Source: Pseudomonas helmanticensis
GTDB lineage: Bacteria; Pseudomonadota; Gammaproteobacteria; Pseudomonadales; Pseudomonadaceae
DNA length: 64,000 nt
Assembly: GCF_900182985.1 (NCBI RefSeq)
Contig: NZ_FXUY01000001.1
Location: forward strand, 3,100,001-3,164,000
Reading direction: 5' to 3'
The notes under the pieces are model-generated. The model made no database searches. It worked only from the letters and a program-made list of their open reading frames with translations, and was not told the origin of the DNA. A program made the translations under genes and the position numbers. Positions 13,390 through 31,061 of the stretch are shown here, in pieces; position 1 is the first letter of the stretch, and each line of letters opens with the position of its first letter.

Positions 13390-13857
13390 TCAGCCGGCGA
13401 CGGCCTGTTTGCGATCACGCCAGGCCATGATCAGCCAGACAGCGGTGACGCCGGCGAATTTCGACAGCAGCGCGGTGATGATCACCGGTGGTGTCAACAG
13501 GTCGATCATGCCGAAGAAGATGAAGGTATCGAGGGGAATGCTCAGTGCCGAACTGATCCACAAGCGGTCCCGCAATGGGCGTTTGGTGATACTGAACACC
13601 AGCCAATCGATGATTTCCGACACCGCGAACGCCGTGGCACTGGCCAAAGCAATGGAGGGATCGGAGGTGACGTAAGACAGCACCAGCGCCGCCAGCATCG
13701 CCACCAGCGCACCGTGACCGAAACGGGTCTGCACCATGTCGCGCAGTATGAAGACCAGACCGCCCCAGGCCGACCAGATGATGTCCAGGTGCGGCGCGGT
13801 GGAGAAGGCGAAGTTGATCAGCACGACGCTGCTGATATAGGCGATGAGGAAAATCAT
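13390..13857 (-). CDS. VUT-family integral membrane protein (YhhQ/queuosine-precursor-transporter-like)
   Basis: 155 residues and nearly all hydrophobic, with about five or six helices. The pattern (ASATAFAVSEIIDWLVFSITKRPLRDRLWISSALSIPLDTFIFFG) is that of the VUT family, whose larger members move preQ0 or other queuosine precursors. This is a short member, so the substrate is open. The 100 bases between it and purT contain no gene. Downstream lies a MITE-like element. Confidence 0.72.
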   Translation of the reverse strand: MIFLIAYISSVVLINFAFSTAPHLDIIWSAWGGLVFILRDMVQTRFGHGALVAMLAALVLSYVTSDPSIALASATAFAVSEIIDWLVFSITKRPLRDRLWISSALSIPLDTFIFFGMIDLLTPPVIITALLSKFAGVTAVWLIMAWRDRKQAVAG

Positions 13858-13914
13858 GGGGGCGACCTGGCTGATTGGCGCACAGATTACTGGACCCGCA
13901 GATCAAGAGCCACC

Positions 13915-14072
13915 CCCTCACCCCAGCCCTCTCCCCCATGGGGGCGAGGGGGAAGGGAGCAGATCTCCATGATGTTCATGACCTGAGTTCGACGCGGTAT
14001 TTTCAGGTCGGCGTGACTCGTCCAAACAACCCGGTCAGTCCCTCTCCCCCTGGGAGAGGGTTAGGGTGAGGG
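13915..14072. mobile_element. MITE-like element with terminal inverted repeats (single copy)
   Basis: About 158 bp bounded by inverted ends: CCCTCACCCCAGCCCTCTCC at the left and the complement of CCCTCACCCTAACCCTCTCC at the right. Inside each end is a small palindrome (CTCTCCC..GGGAGAG type). The inner segment, read on the minus strand (GACTGACCG, GTTTGG, ACGCCGAC, TGAAA.TACCG, GTCGAA.TCAGGTC), matches in order the 80-bp spacer of the tandem array at 25848-26336. It has no coding capacity. Lies between the VUT gene and DUF1289. Confidence 0.75.
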
Positions 14073-14086
14073 CAATCACATGCCGA

Positions 14087-19937: not shown

Positions 19938-20071
19938 TTGATCGATGCCCGACCCGATCGGCGAACACAAAACCGCTGATTGATGCACAACCCTATCGGC
20001 GGACGCAAAAACCGCCGATGGATGCACAACCCCTGTCGGCGCACGCAAAACCGTCGATTGATGCACGACTC
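19938..20071 (+). repeat. Three tandem 39-bp hairpin repeats plus a partial fourth, inside the nag operon
   Basis: Units at 19938-19976, 19977-20015 and 20016-20054, then a partial unit running into a REP at 20072. Each has the form GAT-GATGCACAACCC-ATCGGCG-ACGCAAAA-CCGCCGAT. In the second unit ATCGGCGG / CCGCCGAT pair perfectly with a 9-base A-rich loop; the first and third keep a weaker version. No ORF with a plausible start is supported here. Confidence 0.85.
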
Positions 20072-25151: not shown

Positions 25152-25514
25152 TCAGGTTTGTGGATCGACTCGATCCAGTGCCCGGTTTACTGCGAGTTCG
25201 GCGAGCATGATGATTTGCTGGATGGCCAGTGCGGTGCTGCGTTGCAAGCCGCCTAGTTCGGTTGCGAAGTTGCTGGCCATGGCGTTTGCTGAGGCCAACG
25301 ATTCACAGGCGTGGGCGAGCAGGCTTTCGGTGTCGACGCTGGGGTGGACGAGGAACATCGTGCTCGGTTGTCGGGGTTTGGCGGGTTCGGGGCTGAGGTA
25401 GAAATCGAGAGCGCGTTTGATGGCTTCGCGGTTTTTTGCCAAGTCTTCGGCGCGGATGGCGGCTTCGAGTGGGGTGGTGGTTTCGGGGGGTGGATCGGGG
25501 ATCAGTTTTTCCAT
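25152..25514 (-). CDS. DUF6124 family protein
   Basis: 120 residues starting MEKLIPDPPPETT, then an acidic-basic helical stretch (EDLAKNREAIKRALDFYL) and MFLVHPSVDTESLLAHACESLASANAMASNFATELGG, ending in a helix. This is the DUF6124 pattern, a Pseudomonas-centred family of unknown function present in several copies per genome. ATG 25514 has AAAGGA upstream; a 42-codon in-frame extension lies in the structured leader and is not believed to be translated. The leader is described separately. Confidence 0.75.
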   Translation of the reverse strand: MEKLIPDPPPETTTPLEAAIRAEDLAKNREAIKRALDFYLSPEPAKPRQPSTMFLVHPSVDTESLLAHACESLASANAMASNFATELGGLQRSTALAIQQIIMLAELAVNRALDRVDPQT

Positions 25515-25800
25515 CGAACAAGTCCTTTGAGTGTTGCAGCCACTTGCTCTCGATCTCACTCGAAGAAGGGTGGCAGCCATGTACGGAGTGAGATTACCGG
25601 TAAGGACCCCAAATCCGGCCGGACCGAAGTCCGCCCGCACATAGCCGCCATAAGGACCTGCTGACAGCGTGAGCTGGCCGCAATTATGGGGGCACTTGTC
25701 TGGGGATCCAAATCGGGTATCTCACCTCCCGGTCGCTGAATTGGCAGCGACAGGCAAAGACTAGAGAGCGCACGTCCGACGGACAACCTGAAAACCTTGT
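25515..25800 (-). promoter_or_regulatory. Hairpin-rich 5' leader of the DUF6124 gene
   Basis: Four perfect inverted repeats on the minus strand before the RBS: 25774-25784 (GTCC/GGAC), 25733-25750 (TCGCTG/CAGCGA), 25621-25632 (GGAC/GTCC with a 4-base loop) and 25553-25594 (ATCTCACTC/GAGTGAGAT, 9 bp, 24-base loop). The last stops about 30 bases before the RBS. Could be a cis-regulatory RNA. The overlapping 96-codon frame at 25556-25846 is treated as spurious. Confidence 0.5.
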
Positions 25801-25847
25801 GGGAAGGTTCTGCTATTTCTACACATATCCAAACAGACCAAAGCAAA

Positions 25848-26336
25848 CCCTCACCCTAGCCCTCTCCCAGAGGGAGAGGGGACTGACCGAGGTGTTTGGT
25901 GGATGTACGCCGACGTGAAATACCGAGTCGAATTCAGGTCCTGAAACAGATCAAAAGCCCCTCACTCGCCCCTCCCCCAGAGGGAGAGGGAACTGACCGA
26001 GGTGTTTGGTGGATGTACGCCGACGTGAAATACCGAGTCGAATTCAGGTCCTGAAACAGATCAAAAGCCTTTCACTCGCCCCTCCCCCAGAGGGAGAGGG
26101 GACTGACCGAGGTGTTTGGTGGGTGTACGCCGACGTGAAATACCGAGTCGAATTCAGGTCCTGAAACAGATCAAAAGCCCCTCACTCTCCCCTCCCCCAG
26201 AGGGAGAGGACTGACCGAGGTGTTTGGTGGATGTACGCCGACGTGAAATACCGAGTCGAATTCAGATCCTGAAAAGCCCACAAATCGGCTCCCTCTCCCC
26301 TGGGAGAGGGCTGGGCGGGCGGCGTTCCGATGAGGG
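25848..26336 (+). mobile_element. Tandem array: four copies of the MITE-like element
   Basis: Period is 110, 110 and 108 bp (ACTGACCGAGG at 25882, 25992, 26102, 26210). Each unit starts with a CCCTCACTCGCCCC-like end and palindrome (CTCCC..GGGAG) and continues with GGTGTTTGGTGGATGTACGC, the GTGAAATACCGAGTCGAATT segment and the small palindrome TTCAGG-T-CCTGAA. The last unit ends in an inverted palindrome (26291-26310); the outer right end GATGAGGGG at 26329 is separated by about 15 inserted bases. Same element as 13915-14072. No coding function. Confidence 0.8.
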
Positions 26337-26439
26337 GCAGCTCCAACACAAATCAAAAGTCGAACCCCGGGCTCCTCACCACTCTAGGCCGAGTGTCAGC
26401 TCGCCTGCTCTTGATCTTGATCCACCGGCCCCGTCGGCA

Positions 26440-26670
26440 GGCTGAGTGGAGGGATTTATCCGGGGGTGGGAGCGCAGCGACCGTTTGGCGCAGCCAAATG
26501 CATCGAGAGGAGGTGCAGCGAAGCAAACCGTAGGCGATGCGCCCGGATGAATTCCGGAGCGAAGGAACCCCGAGCTTTAGCGAGTGGGCCGAACGTTGGG
26601 GCAAGCCTTTTTGGTTACTTTTGAGGCGTTTGTCAAAAGTGACCCGCCGTAAGGGCGGAACCCTGAGAAG
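26440..26670 (+). repeat. Structured intergenic repeat, non-coding
   Basis: Rich in inverted repeats: TTTGGC/GCCAAA (26484-26498), GCATCG/CGATGC (26500-26540, enclosing a loop), CCGGA/TCCGG (26543-26557), GGTTACTTTTG/CAAAAGTGACC (26613-26644, one G-U pair), CCGCC/GGCGG (26644-26658). AGCGA occurs at 26476, 26517, 26558 and 26579. From memory, very similar sequence is dispersed in Pseudomonas chromosomes and often mis-annotated as short ORFs. Flanking 26337-26439 and 26671-26732 show nothing identifiable. Confidence 0.6.
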
Positions 26671-26732
26671 CCGTTACCGCAGCAATGGATATGTACTCGA
26701 TCAGTCAGAACATTATTGCCTGAGCCGGCACC

Positions 26733-26757
26733 TTCGCGAGCAGGCTCGCTCCCACAT
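26733..26757. repeat. Single REP (class 3)
   Basis: CTTCGCGAGCAGGCTCGCTC followed by CCACA; same arm as at 24979. Lies between the structured repeat and the yqfO-like terminator. Confidence 0.8.
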
Positions 26758-27164: not shown

Positions 27165-30100
27165 TTAGTTCACCCAGACGCGTGCATTACGGAACATACG
27201 CATCCAAGGTGCATCTTCGTTCCAGTCTTCCGAACGCCACGAGTTCTGCACGGCACGGAACACACGCTCCGGGTGCGGCATCATGATCGTCACGCGGCCG
27301 TCACGGCTGGTGAGACCGGTAATCCCGCGCGGCGAACCGTTCGGGTTGGCCGGATAACGCTCGGTGACCTTGCCGCTGTTGTCGACGAAACGCATCGCCA
27401 CGCAACCGGACAGATCGGCTTCCAGCAGTGCCTCTTCGCTGGAGAACTCGGCGTGACCTTCACCGTGAGCAATGGCGATCGGCATACGCGAACCGGCCAT
27501 GCCCTGCAGGAAGATCGAGTTCGATTCCTGGATCTGCACCATCGCCACACGCGCTTCGAACTGTTCGGAGCGGTTGCGCACAAAGTGCGGCCAGAACTCG
27601 CTGCCCGGGATCAGCTCGTGCAGGTTGGACATCATCTGGCAACCGTTGCACACGCCGAGGGTGAAGCTGTCGTTACGCTCGAAGAAACCCTGGAACGCAT
27701 CGCGGGCACGGCTGTTGAACAGTGCCGACTTGGCCCAGCCTTCACCGGCGCCGAGCACGTCGCCGTAGGAGAACCCACCGCACGCCACCAGACCTTTGAA
27801 CTCGTTCAGGTCGACACGGCCGGCGAGAATGTCGCTCATGTGCACGTCGATCGCGTTGAAACCGGCGCGGTCGAACGCCGCCGCCATTTCCACCTGACCG
27901 TTGACGCCCTGCTCACGCAGCACGGCAACCTGTGGACGAATGCCCTTCTTGATGTAAGGCGCGGCGATGTCCTGGTTGACGTCGTAGCTGAGCTTGACGC
28001 TCAGGCCCGGGTTGTCTTCTTCCAGCAGCACGTCGAACTCTTGCTCGGCGCAGTCGGCGTTGTCGCGCAGACGCTGGATCTGGTAGCTGGTTTCAGCCCA
28101 GGTACGTTGCAGCAGACGACGCTGGCCTTCGAACACGGTGTCACCGTTGAAGGTGATGTTGATCTGGCCATTGTTGATCGGCTGACCGATCACAGAAACG
28201 CAGTCGCCCAGACCGGCCGCGCTGAATTGCGCGAGGATGTCTGGCGTGGCGTCCTGGCGAACCTGGATCACTGCACCCAGTTCTTCGTTGAACAGGATGG
28301 CGGCGATGTCGGCGGTGGTTTCAGCCAGACCATCAAGGTTCAGGCTCAGACCGCAATGACCGGCGAAGGCCATTTCCACCACGGAGGTCAGCAGACCACC
28401 GTCGGAACGGTCGTGGTAAGCCAGCAGGTGACCGTCGGCGTTCAAGCCCTGGATCACCGCGAAGAAGGCTTTCAGGTCTTCGGCGTCGTCGACGTCCGGC
28501 GCGTGTTTGCCGAGCTTGCCGTGTGTCTGAGCAAGGATCGAAGCACCCATACGGTTCTGACCACGACCGAGGTCGATCAGGATCAGGTCGGTGGTGCCCT
28601 TGTCCATGCGCAGTTCCGGGGTCAGGGTCTGACGGATGTCAGCCACTGGCGCGAAACCGGTCACGATCAGCGACATCGGCGAGGTCACGGTTTTTTCTTC
28701 GCCGTTATCGTTCCAGCGAGTGGCCATGGACATCGAGTCCTTGCCCACCGGAATGGTGATGCCCAGCTCAGGGCACAATTCCATACCGACCGCTTTCACG
28801 GTGTCGTACAGACGCGCGTCTTCGCCCGGGTGGCCGGCAGCGGACATCCAGTTCGCCGACAGTTTGATGTCGGAGATCTTGTTGATGCGCGACGCGGCGA
28901 TGTTGGTCAGGGTTTCGCCGATGGCCATGCGGCCCGACGCCGGAGCGTCCAGCAGAGCCAGCGGAGTACGCTCGCCCATCGCCATCGCTTCACCGGTGTA
29001 AACGTCGAAGCTGGTGGCGGTGACGGCAACGTCGGCCACCGGAACCTGCCACGGGCCGACCATTTGGTCACGGGCCACGAGGCCGGTGATCGTGCGGTCG
29101 CCGATGGTGATCAGAAAGCTTTTGCTCGCCACGGCCGGGTGATGCAGCACGCGTTCGATGGACTCGCTGATGTCGAGGTTCGACGGATCGAAGTCATCGC
29201 CCATTTCAGCTTCGCGAACCACCGAGCGGTGCATGCGCGGGGCTTTGCCCAGCAACACTTCCAGTGGCATGTCCACCGGGTTGTTGCCGAAGTGGCTGTC
29301 GGTCACGGTAAGTTGCGGTTCAGCGGTGGCTTCACCGACAACGGCAAACGGGCAGCGCTCGCGTTCACAGATCGCCTGGAAGCGCGCGAAGTCTTCAGGG
29401 CCAACGGCCAGAACGTAACGTTCCTGGGATTCGTTGGACCAGATTTCGTGCGGGGCCATGCCCGGCTCGTCGTTAGGAATGTTGCGCAGTTCGAAACGGC
29501 CACCGCGGTCGCCGTCGTTGACCAGTTCCGGGAAGGCGTTGGACAGACCGCCCGCGCCAACGTCGTGGATGAAGCTGATCGGGTTCTTGTCACCCAGTTG
29601 CCAGCAACGGTCGATGACTTCCTGGCAACGACGCTCCATTTCAGGGTTTTCACGCTGTACGGAAGCGAAGTCGAGATCCGCCGAGCTGGTGCCGGTGGCC
29701 ATCGAGGAAGCGGCACCGCCGCCCAGACCGATGAGCATCGCCGGGCCGCCGAGGACGATCAGCTTGGAGCCGACCAGGATCTCGCCTTTCTTGACGTGTT
29801 CTTCGCGGATGTTGCCCATGCCGCCAGCGAGCATGATCGGCTTGTGGTAACCACGAACTTCGTCACCGTGCGGGGTGGTGATCGATTGTTCGAAGGTACG
29901 GAAGTAGCCAGTCAGGGCCGGACGACCGAATTCGTTGTTGAACGCGGCGCCGCCGAGCGGGCCTTCGATCATGATGTCCAGCGCGGTGACGATGCGCTCA
30001 GGCTTGCCGTACGGCACTTCCCACGGCTGTTCGAAGCCGGGGATCTGCAGGTTCGACACGGTGAAACCGGTGAGGCCAGCCTTTGGCTTGGCACCACGAC

Positions 30101-31061
30101 CGGTTGCACCTTCGTCACGGATCTCGCCGCCGGAACCGGTCGATGCGCCCGGGAACGGGGCGATCGCGGTCGGGTGGTTGTGGGTTTCAACCTTCATCAG
30201 GATGTGCACCGGCTCCTGCACCGCACCGTACTGGCGGGTTTCAGGGTTCGGGAAGAAACGGCCGGCAACGTTGCCGACGATCACCGAGGCGTTGTCCTTA
30301 TAAGCCGACAGAACGCCTTCGCTGTGCATCACGTAGGTGTTCTTGATCATGCCGAACAGGCTTTTTTCCTGGTTCTCACCATCAATATCCCAACTGGCGT
30401 TGAAGATCTTGTGGCGGCAGTGTTCGGAGTTGGCCTGGGCAAACATCATCAGTTCGATGTCGTGCGGGTTGCGCTTCAAACCGTTGAAGGCGTCGACCAG
30501 ATAATCGATTTCGTCTTCGGCCAGGGCCAGGCCCAGCTCGGTGTTGGCTTTTTCCAGCGCAGCGCGACCGCCACCGAGGATGTCGATGGCCGTCAGCGGC
30601 TTCGGCTCGGCGTGGCTGAACAGACCGGCGGCCTGTTCGAGGTTGGCCAGCACGATCTGCGTCATGCGGTCATGCAGCACGTCGGCGATCTGCTGGGCTT
30701 CGGCTTCACTGAACTGACCGGCCACGTAGAAGGCGATACCGCGCTCCAGACGCTGGATCTTGCTCAGGCCGCAGTTGCGGGCGATGTCGCTGGCCTTGCT
30801 CGACCATGGCGAGATGGTGCCGAAACGCGGCAACACCAGAAACAGACGACCGGTCGGCTCTTGTACCGGAACGCTTGGGCCGTACTTCAGAAGGCGCGCT
30901 AGCACCTGCTGTTCGTCGCCGGTCAGGACGCCGGTGACTTCGGCGAAGTGAGCGAATTCAGCATACAGGCCACTGACAGCTGGAACCTTCTGGCTCAGTT
31001 GCTCAAGGAGTTTGCTGTGGCGAAAGGCAGAAAGGGCAGGAGCGCCGCGCAGGATCAACAT
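27165..31061 (-). CDS. purL: Phosphoribosylformylglycinamidine synthase PurL
   Basis: Fourth step of purine synthesis: FGAR + glutamine + ATP to FGAM. 1298 residues, the large proteobacterial form. N-terminal PurS-like region (about 1-150), two AIR-synthase-like halves ([20 protein letters not shown] near 210; [30 protein letters not shown] near 300), and a C-terminal glutamine amidotransferase from about 1035 with the nucleophile in [12 protein letters not shown] and the His/Glu pair in MPHPERVFR. Complete. The 285 bases between it and mltF hold the two divergent promoters and no gene. Confidence 0.98.

Follow-up and report, generated by a model that had tools for sequence, protein, structure and literature searches.

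The window analysed here, a stretch of 64,000 nucleotides (nts) from the genome of Pseudomonas helmanticensis (the home genome), contains a tandem array at 25848-26337 of the plus strand, which is built of an outer left end, four units and a single right end, all read on that strand. The outer left end (25848-25881) reads CCCTCACCCTAGCCCTCTCCC at 25848; it consists of CCCTCACCC and the hairpin CCCTCTCCC..GGGAGAGGG, and 25848-25880, read on the minus strand, agrees with the BoxC/TM consensus. It is followed by the spacer of unit 1 (25882-25957), which closes with the junction sequence CAGATCAAAAG, by unit 2 (25958-26067) and unit 3 (26068-26177), each with a repeated left end (CCCCTCACTCGCCCCTCCCCC.. 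in unit 2), a spacer and a junction, and by unit 4 (26178-26289), where the left end leads into a complete, diverged spacer. The only right end (26290-26337) is made of the hairpin CCCTCTCCC-CTG-GGGAGAGGG, CTGGG, an insert of approximately 15 bp (26316-26330) and TGAGGGG; according to the site comparison the insert, present in relative G097 and absent from G111, interrupts this end.

The sequence-only reading had described units spaced by 110, 110 and 108 bp, with a left outer end and a single inverted right end. Both ends are present, the right one with its insert, and the spacing was borne out by direct reading (ACTGACCGAGG at 25882, 25992, 26102 and 26210), by a repeat search of the window, which gave one family of four 130-nt copies at spacings of 110, 110 and 108, and by TRF (25860-26274; period 110, 3.8 copies, 95% matches, score 767). 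TRF also listed a 39-bp tandem repeat elsewhere in the window, at 19940-20066 (3.3 copies, 83% matches). At the internal junctions approximately 11 bp (CAGATCAAAAG) precede each repeated left end, so that they read CCTGAAACAGATCAAAAGCC and then the repeated left end, the third one with two changes. Compared with the first 130-nt copy, the second was 97% and the third 98% identical, and the fourth only 76%, because it continues into the differing right end. When the units themselves were compared, units 1-3 were 97.5-98.7% identical to each other, and unit 4 was a diverged relative of them, at 86-87% over the 80-column core. The description of the units as nearly identical is therefore valid for the first three and not for the last.

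To the left of the array, on the minus strand, is a DUF6124 gene of approximately 120 aa (25152-25514), which is directed away from the array and whose domain has the array's left end 514 bp upstream of it. Its leader contains a C4 antisense RNA (25566-25655; RF01695, 66.4 bits), and the a1/b1 targets of this RNA (25710-25764; RF03163, 50.8 bits) lie between the array and the C4 RNA, also on the minus strand. On the right is a dispersed repeat of approximately 365 bp on the plus strand (26331-26695), termed r26, which is found behind the right end in most window-type arrays. Its far end is sharp (GGATAT...), with copies at L102, L116, L132, L201 and other loci, and it is possibly R26 (352 bp) of Silby. 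No match to r26 was found in Rfam at the gathering threshold. By eye, the arms of its hairpins change together; two-sided changes were found in 17 of 56 predicted pairs on the given strand and 10 of 47 on the other, as counted in a gappy alignment with no shuffled control. Next comes purL (FGAR amidotransferase; 27165-31061, minus strand), which was used as an anchor for comparing the site between species. A single full-length copy of the element is located at 13912-14075 on the minus strand; direct reading bore out the first description of it (13915-14072), in the opposite orientation to the array and with both ends complete.

The element is dispersed. Using the single copy as a query, at least 61 matches were obtained in the home genome, which has 6.53 Mb in two contigs, a lower bound since 40 of 133 first-look candidates were scored, and the possibility named beforehand, that the element occurs at these two sites only, is thus false. 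The end motif CCCTCACCCYRRCCCTC was found 108 + 105 = 213 times as exact matches in the home genome, and its reversed control 0 + 0 times. When five candidates were scored per genome, 49 of 149 same-genus genomes, the home genome included, matched the single copy at E <= 0.001; the best E was below 1e-25, corresponding to full-length copies, in 20 of these 49, and many others match one end only. An exact 28-base pattern combining end and spacer was found in 116 stretches of genome contigs, all from Pseudomonas. No full-length copy was found in the E. coli genomes; among 5,426 of them a single genome gave a match, over 19% of the query. Carriage by plasmids was rejected, as eight plasmid records each covered 22% of the query or less, and carriage by phages was rejected because none of the phage records searched matched.

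Alignment of 30 copies gave a consensus of 160 bp with complementary ends, in which the spacer is variable and the ends are almost invariant. The ends match a known motif exactly. BoxC/PIT/TM(ECO) is described as an intrastrand-triplex motif with the consensus 5'-CCCTCNCCCN3-6GGGNGAGGGN3GGGNGAGGG, for which a block of polymerase in vitro, no effect in vivo and more rearranged loci are reported (PMC4666352); the same source lists inverted BoxC pairs in E. coli and ties the motif to instability (PMC4666352). Three matches to this consensus were found in the window, at both ends of the single copy and at the outer left end of the array, compared with 0.00 in 100 shuffles, which excludes chance for the ends. 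In the home genome there are 71 + 80 = 151 exact motifs, and 0 + 0 for the reversed control. The likeness lies in the sequence; the difference is that in the present family the motif forms the ends of a defined element of approximately 160 bp, with a family-specific spacer and tandem arrays.

Computational folding of the ends gave hairpins, so the element can be drawn as two inverted hairpin repeats around a spacer. Two-sided change was found in one of 35 predicted pairs in the 30-copy alignment, and, with scarcely any compensatory change, the constraint on the ends looks as if it acts on the DNA letters. An RNA function of the element was rejected because the paired columns scarcely covary and Rfam gave nothing beyond a chance-level match at 25780-26750. 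Borne out by the home-genome, same-genus and exact-end searches is the earlier description of a dispersed, non-coding family with inverted ends, that is, a MITE-like one. We consider it likely that this is a high-copy, non-autonomous, MITE-like family in which inverted BoxC/TM hairpin ends enclose a spacer of approximately 80 bp. The left flank of single copies is enriched for AAAAGC, with 45 of 91 ending in A[AG]AGC. Several copies in several genomes carry an insert of approximately 17 bp, CGGTCCGACGTTTCGGG or its complement, inside the hairpin of either end (L024, L028, L034, L035, L038, L056 and L058; L189, L204, L213, L221 and L237). The insert of approximately 15 bp inside the outermost end at 26316-26330 is a different one, seen also at L040, L016 and L102 and absent at that site in G111 and G098.

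Arrays recur outside the window. When the spacer core was used as a profile, 434 matches in 204 loci were obtained, and these were joined into 277 chains, of which 189 were single copies, 59 were arrays of class II and 29 were arrays of class I; the classes were assigned automatically, some places appear under two locus identifiers, and some class II arrays are partial spacer duplications. In class I arrays (L032, L181, L215 and L221) all units are complete and are joined by hybrid palindromes with a period of approximately 100-114, the junction consisting of the inner half of a right end and the inner half of a left end. In class II arrays, which are of the window type, the units other than the last are cut at approximately core position 74-82 and a new left end follows, and the layout read in the window, left end plus spacer repeated before one right end, is found at many other loci. 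The main class II junction is TGAA[AT]CAGATCAAAAGCCCC. Clearly different junctions are found at L109; at L121, L146, L201 and L237; at L161 and L196; at L178; and at L190, indicating that tandem duplication arose more than once. The class II arrays have 16 left-flank groups. Larger arrays are also present, one of about eight 142-bp units of a related spacer subfamily in the home genome (L054) and one of 11 units in G097. Mean identity between units was 0.893 within arrays and 0.794 between arrays, and the nearest relative was in the same array for just 75 of 180 units, which indicates that homogenisation is partial. At L132, L152, L173, L180 and L201 a minisatellite of a 12-bp repeat, AGATCAAAAGCC, adjoins the left end, and r26 is found on either side.

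The sequence-only reading had proposed comparing array copy number, and between species the purL site was found to carry from 0 to 5 units. Among 14 relatives with the orthologous site, six had one unit and seven none, and in one the site was truncated by a contig end and unreadable. Unit counts at the purL site were five in Pseudomonas sp. DTU12.3 (L142), two in P. rustica, two in P. crudilactis and one in P. iridis, the compared locus including 91 bp of purL for DTU12.3 and 151 bp for P. crudilactis. The units of DTU12.3 are up to 98.7% identical to window units 1-3, and window unit 1 is equally close, at 98.7%, to unit 1 of DTU12.3 and to a unit of HKI0770. Window unit 4, which is 86-87% identical to its own neighbours, has its nearest relatives in the final units of P. 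rustica (91.1%) and DTU12.3 (89.9%). From this relationship of units between species it follows that first-like and last-like units, and hence a multi-unit array, are older than these species. The proposed recent expansion is accordingly not supported in that form, although the present unit number of the window array may nonetheless be recent.

The single copy had been taken as the founder of the array. Its identity to the array's four units is 72.5-78.7%, and among 68 home-genome copies it comes 11th, 11th, 11th and 21st in likeness to them, so it belongs with the less similar copies and was rejected as founder; a history of a founder and a recent burst was rejected as well, since units of DTU12.3 and P. 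rustica match window units at the purL site. The site of the single copy could be anchored in 18 of 20 loci of relatives, counting the home genome. The element is present in three of the 18 (one unit in the home genome, G000, one in G029 and two in G019) and missing in 15, with a short spacer of 88 bp in G016. A counterpart in G097 is 95% identical and lies approximately 12 kb from the purL site of that genome, as in the window. Occupancy of this site thus differs between species, with no relative near enough to give a clean empty site. By eye, 12 of the 15 element-free relatives carry unrelated inverted palindromic repeats at the site corresponding to 13857-14075 (L075-L091). This intergenic site appears as if it were a repeat hot spot.

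The window-type arrays are linked to the C4/DUF6124 genes and to r26. Among 116 pattern-selected loci, which represent a restricted set of genomes and are not independent of one another, a DUF6124 gene was found within 700 bp of 24 of 45 class II arrays, one of 18 class I arrays and 22 of 87 single copies, and r26 adjoined 37 of 45, 4 of 18 and 32 of 87, respectively. With loci selected solely by the dominant junction, there were 81 matches in 7 of 149 genomes, and among the 18 distinct places obtained from 30 of these 81 matches, two of them ended by contig ends, DUF6124 was present at 11 and r26 at 15. The 24 class II arrays near DUF6124 (within 700 bp) all have their left end toward the gene; 17 are upstream, 14 of them at 509-541 bp from the domain, and seven are downstream, at 61-66 bp. 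In the window, 84 bp separate the array from the a1/b1 element.

This constant placement is what would be expected if the array were a selected, working regulatory part of the C4/DUF6124 cassette, its hairpin units, placed ahead of the C4 leader promoter or directly behind the gene, acting as an insulator, as a protein-binding site or as a tuner by unit number. We regard this as unlikely. Homologous leaders share their insertion point through descent, so a constant distance requires no selection. In addition, seven of the 14 relatives have no unit at the purL site, a search of the region gave no promoter-like match, and 19 of the 25 DUF6124 copies above the cut-off in the home genome are without an element match within approximately 1.5 kb (L244 and L260 being counted as two with one). 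The C4 RNA, in turn, was found in 19 of the 20 home DUF6124 loci scanned (L238-L257), with a1/b1 above threshold in nine. DUF6124 is present in 118 of 149 same-genus genomes, compared with 7 of 149 for the dominant junction, indicating that the arrays are, on this distribution, a late and clade-restricted addition to an old gene family. As for conservation of position across species as part of a gene, which had been named beforehand as a refuting finding, it holds in part: arrays of this type often lie at a fixed distance from C4/DUF6124 genes, but the array is part of no gene. The predicted fold of the DUF6124 protein had a mean pLDDT of 74.5 and a pTM of 0.45; Foldseek returned 44 matches with it, none at E <= 0.001, and no paper on DUF6124 was found in the open-access literature searched.

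A second alternative, which we consider improbable, is that the element is of the REPIN type, moved by RAYT. Both have two inverted hairpin repeats around a spacer and occur in the same host group, and head-to-tail clusters of nearly identical REPINs, flank included, are described, with 16 in P. fluorescens SBW25 (PMC3116915). REPINs are, however, tied to RAYT genes, whereas CCCTCACCC was absent from both strands of the 3.2-3.3 kb around each of the three Y1-transposase matches in the home genome, and mobilisation by a RAYT gene flanked with family ends was rejected on this ground. Window-type arrays keep one right end per whole array, and the same sites also carry genuine REPIN-like palindromes as separate features. 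The search for an enzyme in the loci examined was likewise negative, as no longer, transposase-bearing copy was found there (maximum left-to-right distance 642 bp, longest open frame 122 codons); the trans-acting enzyme implied by the sequence-only reading is unproven. Target duplications, which that reading had suggested looking for, were not detected in 91 single copies, where the longest word shared between 14-nt flanks averaged 3.39, compared with 3.44 for shuffled pairings, and 386 of 500 shuffles were as high as or higher than the observed value. The family is similar to MITEs in being short and non-coding with terminal inverted repeats and many dispersed copies, and differs in that a parent insertion sequence was absent from the loci examined, as were target duplications from the 91 copies. 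It is very improbable that the arrays represent repeated self-insertion of a transposable element, by tandem transposition or circle integration. The class I junctions of inner half-ends (L032, L181, L215 and L221) do resemble a possible circle junction, but class II junctions, which include approximately 11 bp of left flank and lack a right end, are not expected of tandem insertion, and the negative results on target duplications and on an enzyme speak against it as well.

For the growth of the arrays of this MITE-like family we infer slippage or unequal exchange. One tandem duplication would have fused a spacer to a second left end and approximately 11 bp of its flank, the probable route being slippage or template switching where a hairpin end stalls replication; this route is proposed because the two C-rich hairpin ends repeat each other in direct as well as in inverted orientation. 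Unequal exchange among the 110-bp units could then have altered their number, from 0 to 5 at the purL site, and kept the units alike. Finally, duplication or recombination of an r26-array block, or ectopic gene conversion between copies, may have taken the array elsewhere, and such carriage between sites would account for one identical internal junction in many unrelated flanks. A bolder extension, which we consider unlikely, is that the C4-leader/DUF6124 gene, the BoxC-ended array with its amplification and r26 together make up a composite module, which spreads and re-assorts as a unit within one Pseudomonas clade. The fixed orientation and position of the array in it would allow the number of units to tune a gene family that is kept under the control of a phage-type C4 RNA.

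Parts of this picture have precedents. Among the intergenic R families of P. fluorescens, R6 of strain Pf0-1, with 177 bp, 34-bp inverted repeats and 50 copies, is described as a complex repeat in which inverted ends enclose a core, and other families have been termed MITE-like (PMC2718517). R6 was compared with the present family by size, inverted-repeat length and copy number only, and it is reported from Pf0-1 only (PMC2718517). Flank-including tandem REPIN clusters (PMC3116915) and MITE-like R families of P. fluorescens (PMC2718517) are thus already known. When letters were searched in the open-access literature, GGGTGAGGG gave a relevant match and the full end motif gave no paper. The two junction types, the array of 0-5 units at an orthologous site, and the linkage with r26 and C4/DUF6124 are new as far as the literature was searched.

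The tight placement of one array type next to DUF6124 genes under C4 control directs attention to an unstudied gene family with 25 copies in the home genome, and also to a composite repeat that is undescribed in the open-access literature searched. BoxC motifs have been known since the 1990s, to our knowledge with neither a carrier nor a mode of spread. In the present family they form the termini of a defined element, and arrays of variable length are found at orthologous sites in named species, so that the role of BoxC in instability becomes testable.
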